Shown here piece by piece: positions 3,559-24,143 of a stretch of 34,155 bases of DNA. Both the position numbers and the translations under genes were made by a program. Every line of letters starts with the position of its first letter. Positions within the stretch are counted from its first letter, which is position 1. Origin of the DNA: a bacterium (lineage in GTDB: Bacteria; Patescibacteriota; Gracilibacteria; Peribacterales; Peribacteraceae); the NCBI GenBank assembly GCA_027592135.1, contig JAQCIJ010000001.1, forward strand, positions 1-34,155, written 5' to 3'. The notes under the pieces are model-generated. The model worked only from the letters and a program-made list of their open reading frames with translations. It was not told where the DNA came from and ran no database searches.

Positions 3559-3852
3559 CTACGACTTTAAAATACTTAAGTCATCATCGCAAGCGGCCTT
3601 GTTAGGGATCTCCTTGCCGCAACCTTCGCAGAGGTGAACGATCATCCAGCCCTTCTTTTTGCGATGATCAATGCCGACCGGTTTCATCATACTTTTACAG
3701 GTTGACGCACGGTCTCCAGGGCCTGCATCGTCTACATGGCGACTCCATAAACACTTTGGGCAGTGGTTTCTGTACGATCCTGTTTCTAATGGTTCAACAT
3801 CTGCATCGCAGTGTTCACAGGTAAACGGTTCTTGGCGAGCTATGAAAGGCAT
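3559..3852 (-). CDS. RNHCP domain zinc-ribbon protein
   Basis: A 97-residue protein with two zinc-ribbon CxxC pairs (CEHC and CPKC) and the diagnostic YRNHCPKCLWSRHVD block at about residues 27-41. A second pair (CEGC) follows near residue 75. The RNHCP family is widespread in bacteria but its function is unknown; nucleic-acid binding is plausible for a zinc ribbon. The ATG at 3852 lies 6 nt after a minus-strand TATACT (3864-3859). The gene is 29 bp downstream of the 443-aa unknown gene on the same strand. Confidence 0.85.
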   Translation of the reverse strand: MPFIARQEPFTCEHCDADVEPLETGSYRNHCPKCLWSRHVDDAGPGDRASTCKSMMKPVGIDHRKKKGWMIVHLCEGCGKEIPNKAACDDDLSILKS

Positions 3853-5283: not shown

Positions 5284-6378
5284 CTAATTATTAAACTTAA
5301 AGTGCAAAACATCACCATCTTTAACAATATACGTTTTCCCTTCTTGGCGAAGCTTCCCGGCATCCTTGGCTCCGCTCTCTCCGCCGAATTCGATGAAGTC
5401 TGCGTAGGCAATTGTTTCTGCTTTGATAAATCCCTTTTCGAAGTCTGTATGAATCACTCCTGCAGCTTGTGGCGCGGTGCTTCCTTTGAGTATGTTCCAT
5501 GCACGAACTTCCTGCACTCCTGCAGTAAAGTATGTCTGGTATCCAAGGGCTTGATATGCAGCGTGGATCAATCGATCAAGTCCAGAGTCGGTAACACCTA
5601 ACTCATCCAAGAACTCTTTGGCATCCTCTGCAGACAGATCTTGTAAATCCTCTTCGATCTTCGCAGAGATTGTAATCAGTTGCTCAGATTCATTAAGGTC
5701 CATCTGTGTTTTGATATCAGAAGCCTTGAGGGCATGAAGTTCGCTTTCTGCAACATTACAGGCATAGATAATAGGCTTATAGGTAAGCAGCTGTGCAGTC
5801 TTGAGGTATGCATGTTCTTCTTCAGTTACATCCGTTTCTATGGCCATCCTTCCTTCATCGAGCATTTTGCGGACCTTTTCTAGCGCAGCTAGTTCTTTGA
5901 TTTTCTCTTTATCTCCACCTCTAGCCAAGCTCTGAAGTTTGTTCATTCTACCATCGATCGATTCCATATCAGCGATCATGAGCTCTGTCTCGATAATTTC
6001 TCTATCACGCTTTGGGTCTGTCTCTCCTTCGACGTGCGTGATTTCGGAGTCCACAAAGTGACGTACCACATGGCAGATGGCATCTACCTCACGGATAGCT
6101 CCGAGGAATTTGTTTCCAAGGCCTTCTCCTTTAGAGGCTCCTTTTACCAGTCCTGCGATATCCACAAATTCTATAGCGGTAGGAATCACTTTTTGAGGGT
6201 TTACGATTGCAGCCAATGCATCCAAACGCGTATCAGGAACCTCTACAATCCCTACGTTAGGCTCTATAGTACAGAAGGGGTAGTTCTGAGCCATTGCACC
6301 CTTAGAACGCGTTAGTGCATTAAAGAGGGTAGATTTACCTACATTAGGGAGGCCGACAATACCGATCTTGAGTGCCAT
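5284..6378 (-). CDS. ychF: Ribosome-associated ATPase YchF (Obg family)
   Basis: A 364-residue YchF/OLA1 protein, the usual length. The P-loop GLPNVGKS is at residues 9-16, followed by the switch region with [10 protein letters not shown] near 73-82. An NVAES segment replaces the usual NKxD, as expected for a YchF that prefers ATP. A helical insert spans about 130-200, and a C-terminal TGS domain runs from about 280 to the end ([12 protein letters not shown]-type segment, then DFIEFGG). It binds ribosomes and is linked to translation and stress control. It has its own leaderless-type promoter, divergent from the sortase gene. Confidence 0.96.
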
Positions 6379-17564: not shown

Positions 17565-19205
17565 ATGAAACGATTTTCTCGAATACTTTCTGCAACACTT
17601 CTTTTTGTGCTTCTTGCTCCCGTAGCAAGCTTTGCCGCAAGTGCAGATGATGCATTACCAGGATACGGAGACAGCGTAGTTATTTCTCGAGGAGACTTTA
17701 TCCGTGCTGCGGTGCAAGTCTTAGAGATGGAGAACATGTCAGTAGATGAAACTATAGATTTGCCATATCGTAGAGTCGCTAGGGGATTAGAGAAGTATAT
17801 ACGTATCGCTCATACAAAAGATGCACTGGAGGCATTTAGATATGATCTATTGCTTGCGCAGGATATAACGAGGGGTGATGCTCTCCGTGTACTGGTGAAT
17901 CTTTCAGGGAAAACAACAACAACACCTGCTTCCTTTAAAGATGTACGCATAGGATCGGAGGAAGAGTACGCAGTACGAGTAGCTATAGACCAAAAGTGGA
18001 TGGAGCCCATTCGTAATGATTTGTTTGGAGTAAGAAGAAAGCTCACTGGGCGAGAGGCGATACTCCTTCTAAGAAAAGCTTCTGGAGAAACGATGATGCC
18101 AAGTACAACGAACAACACGAATGGAAATTCTACAACCATTAAAGTAAATTATACGTCGCAGCAGAGACTGATGAATCTACCAAAGACACAGATACTCGAG
18201 TCTATTTGGAGTATGATTGAAAGAGAATTTTACTATACCGATAATATCGATGTTGATGAGGCAGCATTTGGTGCTGCAGAAGGATTAGTAAAAAGCTTGG
18301 GAGATAAATACACTACATTTATGCGACCTGTGCGTGCACAGCAATTCCAGACTCAGATCAAAGGAGAGGTAACCGGCATCGGGGCACAGGTAGAGTATAT
18401 TGATGAAATATTCACCATTATTTCTCCAATTAAAGGTTCTCCAGCAGAAGCCGCGGGCTTAAAGCCTGGAGACCAAGTAATCAAGGTAGATGGTGTACCG
18501 CTCGCAGGACTCTCTTTTATGGATGCTGTCGATAAAGTACGAGGTCCTAAGGGGTCAAAAGTAAAACTGACGATTCGTCGAGATGGTATAGAGCTTGATT
18601 TTGATGTGCTCCGCGATATTATTCGTGTTCCAGAGGATATTATTACGTGGCAAGGAGATATTGCCGTAGTGCAAATTACACAGTTTGGACGTGTGACCCA
18701 AGAAGGACTTCGTCCTCAGATGGAGGAAATTGTGAAGAAAAATCCAAAGGGTATTGTTCTTGATCTTCGTAGCAATCCAGGAGGACTTCTCTCTGCAGCA
18801 AATCTTGTTGTCAGCCTCTTTGTTCCAAAAGGAACGCCATATGTAGAAGTACGTTCTCGAAAAGATCAGAGTCTATCGCTAACGACACAAGAACAAGTAG
18901 TGCCAGATTCCATTCCTGTTGTCGTTCTGGCTAACGAAGGATCTGCTTCGGCTTCAGAAATTGTTGCTGGTGCGTTGCAAGACCTCGATCGCGCAACAGT
19001 CGTTGGAGCAAAAACATTCGGAAAAGGAACAGTGCAACAGGTGTTAGAGTTTAATGATCAAAGTAGCCTCAAGATGACTATCGCAGAGTGGTTTACACCG
19101 AACGGCGGTAAGATCGATGGAATCGGCGTTCATCCCGATATTGGTATTTCTGAGATAGAAGGAAGAGACGCACCGTTGCTGAAGGCACTTGATCTATTGC
19201 GGTAA
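17565..19205 (+). CDS. ctpA: SLH-like plus PDZ carboxyl-terminal protease (S41)
   Basis: A 546-residue secreted protease. The signal peptide is residues 1-24 (MKRFSRILSATLL, ends ASFA). Degenerate SLH-like repeats occupy about 28-180. A PDZ domain covers 260-345 (GIGAQVEYIDE, then GLKPGDQVIKVDGVPL). The S41 peptidase domain lies about 355-530 and has the Ser in NEGSASASEI and the Lys in KTFGKGTVQQ that form the Ser-Lys dyad. It trims or degrades envelope proteins at their C-termini. The frame could start at GTG 17541, but the ATG at 17565 begins the signal peptide. The last 12 bp overlap the RT stop region in opposite orientation. Confidence 0.93.
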   Translation: MKRFSRILSATLLFVLLAPVASFAASADDALPGYGDSVVISRGDFIRAAVQVLEMENMSVDETIDLPYRRVARGLEKYIRIAHTKDALEAFRYDLLLAQDITRGDALRVLVNLSGKTTTTPASFKDVRIGSEEEYAVRVAIDQKWMEPIRNDLFGVRRKLTGREAILLLRKASGETMMPSTTNNTNGNSTTIKVNYTSQQRLMNLPKTQILESIWSMIEREFYYTDNIDVDEAAFGAAEGLVKSLGDKYTTFMRPVRAQQFQTQIKGEVTGIGAQVEYIDEIFTIISPIKGSPAEAAGLKPGDQVIKVDGVPLAGLSFMDAVDKVRGPKGSKVKLTIRRDGIELDFDVLRDIIRVPEDIITWQGDIAVVQITQFGRVTQEGLRPQMEEIVKKNPKGIVLDLRSNPGGLLSAANLVVSLFVPKGTPYVEVRSRKDQSLSLTTQEQVVPDSIPVVVLANEGSASASEIVAGALQDLDRATVVGAKTFGKGTVQQVLEFNDQSSLKMTIAEWFTPNGGKIDGIGVHPDIGISEIEGRDAPLLKALDLLR

Positions 19206-20144
19206 ACTCAAAAACCAGCACTGGTTCTGCAGATCTTGACTCAACAGGTAGCAGTCCGCGTGCGAGAGAACACCGAGATAGGACTGTAGTGATTGATCGA
19301 CGCTCTCAGGCGAGATATGCCCCGCTTTGCAACTATCGATTCGATCACTGAGCTTCCTCATCATGCGTCGCTCTGTTTTCGTGCGAAGCATACGGTGATG
19401 CGGCAGGAGCATATATCCAAGGAAATCGATGCCTTGCTTGTATTTCAGGAACGCATCGAGTTCTTCACGGCTTGCCGCGACGATCACGAAGTCATCCGTG
19501 TACCGGACGAAGTGTTTGATCCTGAGTGTATGTTTGATGAATTGATCGAACTCGTTGAGGTAGACATTGGCAAAGAGCTGAGAAGTAAGATTGCCGATAG
19601 GGATTCCCTTCCGCCCGAAGAGTTCGGGATCCTTGGCAAAGGAACTCCCGATGATTTCACAGAGCAACGCAATGGTTTTCTCATCCTTTACCCGTCTTCC
19701 GATGATATGGAGGAGTATGTCATGATCGACGGAAGCAAAGAACTGATGGACGTCGCATTTGAGAACAAAGCATGGGCGTGTCCCGTTCCGGCTCACACTT
19801 TTTAGCATCCCATCGAGTGCGTTTACCGCTTTGTGCGTCCCTTTGCCTTTCTGGCAGGAAAAATTGAGTACCGAGAAAACGGCATGATGCAGAATGCGAT
19901 CCCGCACACTTGCATTGTGAATGCGGCGCTGTTTTGGATCGCAAATGGTGAAAGCGCTGTAGGATTCGTGCCGGTATGTTCCGGCTGCAAGTTCCCGATG
20001 CAGGGCAAAGAGATTCTGCTCCATCCTGCGCTCAAATTCCTGCACATCCTTCCGAGCTTGTTTACCCTTCCGAAACTCCTCCCATGCAGTAAAAAGGGTT
20101 TCCTTTGAGGTAATTTTGCCGAAAAGGTGCTTGTATACCTTCAT
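19194..20144 (-). CDS. DGR-type reverse transcriptase
   Basis: A 316-residue RT of the diversity-generating retroelement clade. RDRILHHAVF (81-90) and SCQKGKGTH (96-104) precede motif A, with D131 in LKCDVHQFFASVD. The motif typical of DGR RTs, IGNLTSQLFAN, is at 183-193, the catalytic YTDD at 215-218, and FLGY at 241-244. The thumb region has SYLGVLSHADCYLL at the end. Only 22 residues separate YTDD from FLGY, where other DGR RTs have about 40-50, so the region around motif 6 appears deleted in frame. The enzyme copies the TR RNA with adenine-directed errors. It is opposite in strand to its target and TR. Activity of this copy is uncertain. Confidence 0.92.
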   Translation of the reverse strand: MKVYKHLFGKITSKETLFTAWEEFRKGKQARKDVQEFERRMEQNLFALHRELAAGTYRHESYSAFTICDPKQRRIHNASVRDRILHHAVFSVLNFSCQKGKGTHKAVNALDGMLKSVSRNGTRPCFVLKCDVHQFFASVDHDILLHIIGRRVKDEKTIALLCEIIGSSFAKDPELFGRKGIPIGNLTSQLFANVYLNEFDQFIKHTLRIKHFVRYTDDFVIVAASREELDAFLKYKQGIDFLGYMLLPHHRMLRTKTERRMMRKLSDRIDSCKAGHISPESVDQSLQSYLGVLSHADCYLLSQDLQNQCWFLSLPQ

Positions 20145-20360
20145 TGCTGCATTGTAGAAGTTTTCGGGGACATTGACAGAAACTAACTTTTATTATAAGT
20201 TATGCCAAGTGTTCTTTCAGAGCATCGTCAAGATTCAGGTAAAGAGACAAGCTCTCTGTGCATTTTGCGTGCTTAGGGCGCTTGTCTCATTTCCGAGCAA
20301 GTCCGAGCCGACGGTACAATCGGTAATACTTGTATGCCCTAAGGGGTAAAGGAGAATCTC
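20145..20360. other. Divergent control region between RT and target gene
   Basis: No gene is recognised. It must carry the promoters of the divergent RT and target genes. It holds a 9-bp inverted repeat GAGACAAGC (20244-20252) and GCTTGTCTC (20280-20288) with a 27-nt loop. An ORF of 24 codons from 20208 looks like chance. AAGGAG (20349-20354) is the SD of the target gene. Confidence 0.4.
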
Positions 20361-21059
20361 ATGAAGACCGCCGCAACAAGCTTGACTAGCCTACCACAGA
20401 AGAAGATCACGACTGGCCTCAAGCGACTCCAAGAGGCAGGCATCACACCAGAGCGATGGCTAGCCATGCTCGACGCAGACCCTGCTTCCATGCAGAGACT
20501 TGTGCGCTACATCAGGACGGGGTGTCCCTTTTTGGGGACGGGTGTGTCCTACGATGCGGCCACGGTTGGTCGCACTCTCGGATTCTCCTGCGAGTGCAGC
20601 GAACCCGTCCCAAAGGCCAACGACGGCGAAATCGTCGTTTACTACGGAGGCTGGAGCCTCGGCGATCTCGTCGGAACGGGCAAGGTGGTCAACCACCTGT
20701 CTTCCGAGAGGGAGACGTGGAAGGCCGAACCGGGGTACTATCGGGTGCTTCTGCCCGTCCCTGATTCAAATAGGAAGACGTGGAGTCAGCAAGCGGGTGA
20801 CGAGGACAGCATGCTTGTCCGTCAATACGACGGGTGGCAGCCCATCCCAACACCCGTTGGTGCAACTGCACTGGCCGTGTATCTCGGTATCAGTGGCGAA
20901 GATCTCCTCAAAGGGAATTTCGCTCGCTGTGATGAGGCGCTCCCCGACGATCGCCACGCCGCACTCTGCGTCGACGAGGGTCGCGTGGGCGTCGACAGCG
21001 ACTACTGGGGTGGCTGCTCCAGCGGCCGCGTCTATCTCGGTGCCGCTCGGAAGTCCTGA
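20361..21059 (+). CDS. DGR variable (target) protein, C-lectin-type C-terminus
   Basis: A 232-residue protein without signal peptide or membrane helix. The N-terminal 60 residues are helical (ITTGLKRLQEAGITPERWLAML). A middle region follows with YYGGWSLGDL and GYYRVLLPVPDSNRKTW. Residues 193-230 are the variable repeat, ending in the SGRVYLGAAR block expected of C-type-lectin folds in DGR proteins. Adenine-derived codons cluster at about 15 sites, presumably ligand-binding positions. The SD AAGGAG is 6 nt from the ATG, unlike the leaderless neighbours, and the gene is visibly GC-richer. Both points suggest lateral origin. The ligand is unknown, and cytoplasmic or surface location cannot be decided. 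Confidence 0.88.
   Translation: MKTAATSLTSLPQKKITTGLKRLQEAGITPERWLAMLDADPASMQRLVRYIRTGCPFLGTGVSYDAATVGRTLGFSCECSEPVPKANDGEIVVYYGGWSLGDLVGTGKVVNHLSSERETWKAEPGYYRVLLPVPDSNRKTWSQQAGDEDSMLVRQYDGWQPIPTPVGATALAVYLGISGEDLLKGNFARCDEALPDDRHAALCVDEGRVGVDSDYWGGCSSGRVYLGAARKS
20937..21052 (+). repeat. DGR variable repeat (VR)
   Basis: 116 bp at the 3' end of the target gene, matching the template repeat at 21457-21569. All 20 substitutions fall at adenines of the TR (15 to G, 4 to C, 1 to T). One extra codon (TAC before TGG) is present in the VR. The last 23 bp (from GTCTATCTCGG) are identical and GC-rich, as expected for the initiation-of-mutagenic-homing segment. Confidence 0.95.
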
Positions 21060-21098
21060 GCCTTGAGTCTTGAGGGCTTGCGCCTTCTTGACGCCTTG

Positions 21099-21136
21099 AA
21101 CCTCCGCGACATTTTTTTCGCGGGGGTTCTTTTTTG
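21099..21136 (+). terminator. Terminator of the DGR target gene
   Basis: A 10-bp stem (21099-21108 with 21119-21128, one T-G pair) closes an AT-rich loop. The 3' arm CGCGGGGGTT is followed by CTTTTTTT, 40 bp after the target stop. Confidence 0.85.
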
Positions 21137-21456
21137 ATACACTGCATTTGTGCATCGCTCTTGTAGCCGGGATCACGGTTCCGTCTCGCGGCGCACCTCG
21201 TCTCTGCTTACCCGGCGTAGCCTTGGCGAAGTCGGGCAATCACCGAAGCGATGAGCGTAGGTGAAAACTCACCGGAGTGTCGCGTCTCTACGGAGCACGA
21301 CAGCGAGTGGGCTCAGACGAAGGAACTTCTTGCTCATTCTCAGCGGAGATATGGGTCACACCATTGCTCCCGAATGAAATACAGGGAGAAGAGGATATAG
21401 GTCGCAAGGCGGTAAACCTCGACTTCCGGTGTCTATAGACGGGAATGGGCAACATA
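21137..21456 (+). other. Non-coding spacer before TR with REP-like element and hairpins
   Basis: No gene is recognised between the target terminator and the TR. It holds a REP-like palindrome (21211-21237), a 5-bp hairpin GGTGA-AAAC-TCACC (21260-21273) and a TGTCG/CGACA stem near 21278-21304. It could be the 5' part of the TR-containing RNA, which must be transcribed on the plus strand to serve the plus-strand VR. No convincing promoter is seen. Confidence 0.4.
21211..21237. repeat. REP-like imperfect palindrome
   Basis: Begins CCCGG and ends CGGGC, with TAGCCTTGGCG in the centre. That 11-base string also occurs in the ribD repeat. Such elements are common in CPR genomes, where they give chance peptides of the PDFAKATPG type. 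This one lies inside the DGR. Confidence 0.6.
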
Positions 21457-21569
21457 GCGCTACCCAACGATAACCACGCCGAACTCTACGTCAACGAGGG
21501 TCGCGTGAACGTCAACAACAACTGGGATGACAACTCCAACGACAACGTCTATCTCGGTGCCGCTCGGAA
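21457..21569 (+). repeat. DGR template repeat (TR)
   Basis: 113 bp with 33 adenines, most in AAC codons (11 AAC in the frame homologous to the VR). It is outside any gene and in the same orientation as the VR. The 80 non-adenine bases are all conserved in the VR. It has AAC-AAC-AAC where the VR has four codons, so the TR probably lost one AAC after the last transfer, or the VR gained one. Confidence 0.95.
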
Positions 21570-21588
21570 CTTCCTTCAGTCAGTCCGA

Positions 21589-21620
21589 ACAACTCTCTCG
21601 AACAACCGTGAGAGAGTTGT
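21589..21620. other. 11-bp hairpin immediately after the TR
   Basis: A perfect stem ACAACTCTCTC (21589-21599) with GAGAGAGTTGT (21610-21620), 10-nt loop, 19 bp downstream of the TR and 2 bp beyond the avd stop on the other strand. It could end the TR RNA, or serve the same role as the cruciforms seen near DGR repeats. It lacks a strong T tract. Confidence 0.75.
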
Positions 21621-21621
21621 C

Positions 21622-21783
21622 CTATTCCTTTACATCGAGGATCAGGTTCTCTACTCGCTGCCAAAGTGTGTAGCGGTCTGCCTTCGAGACGATACCGCGC
21701 AGACCGTGGAAGGTGCGGTAGAGATCGTATGCACGGCGCAGAATGGGGATATCAAAAGCATCTCCCCCTCTGTCTGTATTCAT
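21622..21783 (-). pseudogene. avd: Truncated avd-like DGR accessory gene
   Basis: 53 codons, starting directly at the rpsU stop (TAGATG). They match the first half of Avd-type four-helix-bundle proteins: FDIPILRRAYDLYRTFHGL, then SKADRYTLWQRVENLILDVKE. DGR Avd proteins, about 110-130 residues, bind the RT and the TR RNA and are needed for cDNA synthesis. Here the protein stops after helix 2 begins, and the downstream sequence is the hairpin and TR rather than further avd. It therefore appears to have lost helices 3 and 4, with the new end formed by rearrangement next to the TR. A functional short form cannot be excluded. Confidence 0.75.
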
Positions 21784-21999
21784 CTACATATTGCTGTAAA
21801 ACTGATTTTTTCTATTCTTATCTCTGTACTCTTCACGCTTGAGAGCCTTTTGGCGCGTAAGACGCTTCGTAGGTTTTTTCTTGTTGTGGCCCAATTCACG
21901 AAGCAGCTTCATAAGTCCTGTTTTTTGGACCTGACGCTTAAATCTCTGCTGAAGAGCATCATTACTTTCATTGCCTTTTTTGTGAGCGTGTACTGTCAT
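21784..21999 (-). CDS. rpsU: Ribosomal protein bS21
   Basis: A 71-residue basic protein of the bS21 family, as found in CPR bacteria. NESNDALQQRFKRQVQKTGLM corresponds to the conserved helix 1 region. KKKPTKRLTRQKALKREE forms the basic second helix. It binds the 16S 3' region of the small subunit. The start ATG at 21999 lacks an SD. The gene is divergent from gyrB, and its stop abuts the avd remnant, so the DGR segment seems to have landed directly behind it. Confidence 0.85.
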   Translation of the reverse strand: MTVHAHKKGNESNDALQQRFKRQVQKTGLMKLLRELGHNKKKPTKRLTRQKALKREEYRDKNRKNQFYSNM

Positions 22000-22034
22000 T
22001 TCTGGGGCAGCTTAGGGAGACTGAGATACTTTAG

Positions 22035-24143
<2,109 letters not shown>

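Follow-up and report, generated by a model that had tools for sequence, protein, structure and literature searches.

A DGR of a Patescibacteria lineage with a structured RNA leader 5' of its template, a probable codon gain in its VR and a damaged reverse transcriptase

Two direct repeats, a gene that ends in one of them and a reverse transcriptase (RT) gene on the opposite strand raise the question of what kind of element lies here, which of the repeats changed when they came to differ in length by one codon, whether the element still works and what occupies the interval between the repeats. The window, by which we mean the whole stretch of 34,155 nt that was analysed (contig JAQCIJ010000001.1 of assembly GCA_027592135.1), belongs to a MAG of 1.12 Mb in 54 contigs, which is 98% complete and not closed. 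We regard it as practically certain that what lies here is a diversity-generating retroelement (DGR) from a Patescibacteria lineage. Our best explanation of the whole, to which we give a probability of about 0.82, is a DGR that gained a codon in its VR, was recently inactivated and carries an RNA leader ahead of its template (TR). The layout is inverted, with RT and Avd on one strand and the target gene, leader and TR on the opposite one (Table 1).

Table 1. Features of the cassette, with positions in the window.
Feature	Position (nt)	Strand	Basis
DGR reverse transcriptase gene, 316 aa	19194..20144	-	Pfam RVT_1 1.1e-13; phrog_1423 1.1e-96
Target gene, 232 aa, VR at 3' end	20361..21059	+	Predicted structure; homologues in family
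VR, 116 nt	20937..21052	+	TR alignment: template-A changes plus one extra codon
Four VR codons GAC-AGC-GAC-TAC opposite three TR AAC	20994..21005	+	Overlapped by ACTACT 21001-21006
Hairpin and T-run 3' of target gene, likely terminator	21098..21129	+	Sequence inspection
Structured RNA leader of TR transcript	21156..21452	+	Covariation (13 loci), model R1, independent refold
Leader 5' hairpin	21156-21190	+	
Leader 3' domain, closing stem	21330-21341/21441-21452	+	
TR, 113 nt, 33 adenines	21457..21569	+	VR alignment
12-bp hairpin directly 3' of TR; TR RNA and Avd remnant converge on it	21589..21620	+	
Avd remnant, 53 aa	21622..21783	-	Comparison with L013 Avd

The relation between the two repeats follows from their alignment, which agrees with the earlier note on a TR of 113 nt, a VR of 116 nt, a single 3-nt gap and changes solely at template adenines. 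Mismatches occur at 0 of the 80 other template bases, a zero that is partly set by our taking the first non-adenine mismatch as the end of both repeats (C at TR 21570 against G at VR 21053, in the IMH/IMH* region), which leaves the conclusion unaffected. The gap can be placed at 12 positions (after TR 21512-21523) with no mismatch at a non-adenine, giving 19-21 adenine substitutions, and the best placement has 19 (13 to G, 4 to C and 2 to T). The 20 differences counted earlier (15 to G, 4 to C and 1 to T) correspond to one valid placement, with the gap after 21520-21523 and an inserted VR triplet that reads ACT, CTA or TAC. Were the differences spread at random over 113 sites, the chance that all would fall on adenines is 5e-13 for 19 and 7e-14 for 20; the adenine-specific mutagenic copying that the note had proposed is thus borne out, as the A-only differences of a DGR, at a P of about 1e-13. 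At the candidate IMH/IMH*, the VR end reads CGGAAGTCC and the TR end CGGAACTTCC, and the C in TR against G in VR recurs in many relatives. Direct repeats that differ only at the adenines of one copy are one mark of a DGR, and two further marks are present: the VR occupies the 3' end of an open reading frame, stopping just short of its stop codon, and close to TR and VR is an RT with the motif (I/V/L)GxxxSQ defined in PMC3521204, here IGNLTSQ (from residue 183), together with YTDD (215).

As for the target protein, its AlphaFold2 model has a pLDDT of 86.8, and nearly all of the rows listed by VIA-align for residues from about 85 to 232 are C-type lectin domains, with Z between 3.7 and 8.0 and mostly 5-8; Foldseek gave weak matches only. 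The protein has no match in Pfam, PHROGs or NCBIfam. Its C-terminal domain is likely, from the predicted structure, to be C-type-lectin-like, and the C-type lectin is the usual fold of DGR targets.

The codon difference lies in a run that reads AAC-AAC-AAC-TGG in the TR and GAC-AGC-GAC-TAC-TGG in the VR (20994-21008). The earlier note held that the TR had four AAC units when it wrote this VR and afterwards lost one. AAC could indeed be the source of all four VR codons, AAC runs are prone to slip in DNA replication, and four codons do occur at this site within the family, in one of 15 aligned homologous target proteins (L080, genome G018). The relatives, on the other hand, point the other way. 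The arrangement that the note itself had set against its claim, a three-AAC TR with three matching VR codons, occurs in L092 (G047), a member of the same family that is not a close relative, where TR reads GTC-AAC-AAC-AAC-TGG and VR GTC-GAC-GGC-GAC-TGG; L013 has three codons at the homologous site in its one TR and both VRs, and in L078 the TR and the VR have three each. Furthermore, no gap is needed to align 90-114 nt of the window's TR with the target VRs of five cassettes (L070, L073, L074, L075 and L076), and the window's VR requires a 3-nt gap against nearly all homologues, in nearly all of which three codons are found. Loss from the TR would require both a gain and a loss there. Since relatives have three codons in TRs and VRs and four appear in L080 only, a single gain in the VR is simpler, and loss from the TR seems improbable. 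On these sequence comparisons, we consider it quite probable that the one-codon difference is a gain in the VR; three codons would then be the ancestral state, retained in the TR. A separate observation on L013 concerns an in-frame TGA in its TR (6225-6342), which is A to C in both VRs (TGC), so that the stop is present in the template only.

The extra codon could have arisen by a slip of the RT over one unit of AACAACAAC while copying or by a later duplication of ACT in the VR, and for this VR the two are inseparable. First, the VR contains an exact tandem ACTACT, which the earlier note does not mention, so that plain duplication accounts for the gap without four AAC units, and with one ACT removed it reads GAC-AGC-GAC-TGG, which can be derived from the three-AAC TR by changes at A only. 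Duplication by replication slippage after retrohoming, with no RT event, is thus a serious possibility, at somewhat less than an even chance. Four AAC-derived codons nevertheless give the same look in 48% of simulated products (with AAC substitution rates taken from same-class pairs), and for this reason the tandem was dropped as a discriminator between DNA duplication and RT slippage. Second, VRs that are one codon longer at AAC or AAT runs recur in three other same-class cassettes (L093, L162 and the second VR of L086, whose sibling VR has the same length as the TR), and there the equal change in size comes with no plain duplicate. Slippage in threes at AAC repeats is, moreover, a published model (Wu et al. 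2018, as cited in PMC12875486). A slip by one AAC unit during cDNA synthesis, with the codon gained at copying, therefore comes close to an even chance, even though it cannot be told apart from ACT duplication at this VR and the direction of length change varies. Length changes of 3 nt in the core make the VR longer in four same-class pairs and one phage pair, and the TR longer in one phage pair (L237) and one doubtful pair; with so few cases, and both directions among phage DGRs, we claim no fixed direction. In another phage cassette (L280), the VR (3610-3687) is 6 nt longer than its TR through a tandem duplication of TTTTCG, away from adenine codons.

The state of the cassette is a different matter, and the damage to RT and Avd went unremarked in the earlier note. 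Its RT has two internal in-frame deletions, with junctions near 19862 and 19445, which remove 11 aa (PIFEPTFIAHS) and 23 aa (the LHPHKV region, between YTDD and QGIDFLGY), and both segments are kept by every other full-length family RT that was aligned. Avd, 115 aa long in relatives, is reduced to 53 aa; 46 of its residues match the N-terminus of the intact L013 protein (115 aa) at 80% identity, and the remainder has been deleted. An intact Avd homologue matches NCBIfam DivGenRetAVD and Pfam bAvd. An active, self-sufficient DGR would have a full-length RT and an intact accessory protein, and this one has neither. A second, intact RT acting in trans was considered and set aside: protein and RVT_1 searches of the 98% complete, unclosed MAG gave no other RT, save a C-terminal remnant on contig C8. 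Judged by these lesions, the cassette is most probably inactive in this genome. It is possible that the reduced RT of 316 aa still works, as both deletions preserve the frame. RT and Avd would have been lost by deletion after the codon gain, and the absence of any non-A difference between TR and VR indicates that inactivation was recent; recency has been argued in the same way, from A-only TR/VR differences, for RT-broken DGRs (PMC3521204).

The AAC run or the RT gene might also owe its form to an artefact of assembly or consensus. The sequence is a MAG consensus in which strain mixtures may occur, and DGR loci vary within populations, with contigs that often end there, as C8 does in beginning inside a VR. 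The VR codon, however, is in frame and consistent with A-only change, a single long contig carries all of the lesions, and relatives show lesions too; we thus hold an artefact to be very unlikely. Among the nearest RTs (at least 74% identity over the aligned part), those of G066 and G034 are intact, that of G005 has lost its catalytic core through an in-frame deletion, and in G009 only a C-terminal piece of the RT is left; loss by deletion is therefore recurrent in this group.

Several neighbouring loci deserve description in their own right. The remnant on C8 (L004, G000:C8, 1-884) is a second DGR of this genome, on a contig that begins within the VR end; VR end, leader, TR and then the C-terminal part of an RT follow one another on the same strand, with no Avd and no RT N-terminus, and its TR differs from its VR end at adenines plus one C/G in the IMH region. 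L071 (G005:C13, 1775-3873) has an in-frame RT deletion of about 70 codons that includes the catalytic core, and keeps the leader, the TR being gone. In L070 (G034:C84, 1431-1553), the TR beside a close target homologue does not fit the VR next to it and is similar to the TR that a different cassette type of G034 carries; the local TR has seemingly been exchanged. The damaged RT and Avd genes (G000, G002, G005, G009 and G072) provide a short natural series in which DGR decay can be followed.

The sequence that separates VR from TR is conserved in 13 cassettes, and its plus strand folds into six helices with 46 pairs. Over these 13 loci, 97.1% of cells are paired, as against 39-49% when the partners are slid; 30 of the 46 pairs show compensatory changes, and none of 500 shuffles reached the observed values. 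The plus strand is marked as the RNA strand by its frequent G-U pairs. A covariance model of the leader 3' domain, R1, finds 17 places in 11 of the 74 family genomes (the order-level genome set consists of the same 74) and also matches two loci of the same class (L148 and L166) and viral contigs (L196-L199 and L202). When ten loci that had not been used for training were realigned by sequence, they folded into the same helices, and 22 of 26 pairs showed compensation. In 38 control DGR loci from other clades, among them that of BPP-1, R1 has no match at E up to 1, and an Rfam search of 19000-22200, likewise at E up to 1, gave none either. We have very little doubt that the leader is a real RNA structure. 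An orphan leader-like RNA was also seen in L333 (G072:C25, 1501-1614), next to a gene that resembles a target, and neither TR nor RT was seen adjacent to it.

What the leader does is suggested mainly by where it ends. In all 19 known pairs, TR-VR homology starts between -1 and +4 nt from the leader 3' end. Wherever Avd is found in leader-bearing cassettes it is antisense and starts 14-67 nt past the TR (about 50 nt here), and in most of them a hairpin lies between TR and Avd; by scan, no clear hairpin was seen 3' of the TR in L091 or in L166, and L004 has no Avd. The cassettes L083-L092, L148, L166 and L196-L202 have an Avd that runs antisense to both TR and RT, unlike the layout of BPP-1. The leader might be an unrelated riboswitch-like or untranslated-region element that lies between the genes by position only, and its location after the target gene would suit such an element. 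Against this, its distance from the TR lies between -1 and +4 nt in every one of the 19 pairs, in genomes and viral contigs alike, and where examined it is found at DGR cassettes or their remnants, so that this explanation appears distinctly unlikely. That the leader sets the TR boundary or binds the RT is, in our judgement, an evenly balanced proposition. The plus-strand transcript would consist of leader, TR and 3' hairpin; the RT would have copied the TR with errors at adenines, and the cDNA would then have replaced the VR. The closing stem would have determined how far copying extended on the 5' side, and might also hold RT or Avd. By analogy, it may be comparable to the termination motif described at the 3' end of avd in BPP-1 (PMC12875486).

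More broadly, and tentatively, we suggest that in a DGR clade of Patescibacteria and some viral contigs the template RNA is structured 5' of the TR and not 3' of it, with a stem that reaches up to the first copied base and that could both anchor the RT and halt copying, and with a terminal hairpin just past the TR. If such a 5' leader architecture is true, cDNA priming must differ from that which uses the BPP-1 spacer. Should the leader bind RT or Avd and fix the 5' end of the cDNA, it would represent a template RNA of different architecture and make it possible to test directly which parts of the RNA are required to prime copying and to end it. The literature search, which left most subscription papers outside, found no description of a structured 5' leader in DGRs, and the position and boundary role of the leader are thus new as far as the literature was searched. 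The adenine footprint, the inverted layout, a broken RT and AAC slippage are already known for DGRs; the footprint and the codon indel are expected from known DGRs and known AAC slippage, and what this locus adds is the leader.

The closest well-described system is the DGR of Bordetella phage BPP-1 (mtd/avd/TR/brt), which has in common with the window the A-only transfer from TR to VR, the RT family, an Avd homologue and a C-type-lectin target, here by predicted fold. The RT of an intact relative (L068) matches the reverse transcriptase of PDB 8ub7 (E 1e-49), which we take to be the BPP-1 enzyme. In BPP-1 a single strand carries mtd, the gene that precedes TR, TR itself and brt, and a structured spacer of about 140 nt lies 3' of the TR, between TR and brt. 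In the window, on the other hand, the structured element is 5' of the TR, RT and Avd are damaged, and Avd is antisense and convergent with the TR, with only about 50 nt and a hairpin between them; read-through of the transcript past the TR into antisense Avd is possible. The DGRs of Patescibacteria/CPR (clade 2, Roux et al. 2021, PMC8144416) resemble this one in host group and, as far as that account describes them, in a target without a recognised Pfam domain; the likeness is one of host and target, and the parts of the account consulted make no mention of a 5' leader. With the inverted DGRs of DiGReF (Schillinger et al. 2012, PMC3521204), the window shares an RT strand opposite to that of TR and VR, and with the RT-inactivated DGRs of the same work a broken RT beside TR and VR that still differ by A-only changes. 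Inactivation there took the form of stops, frameshifts and insertions, whereas in the window it consists of two in-frame deletions and the truncation of Avd.
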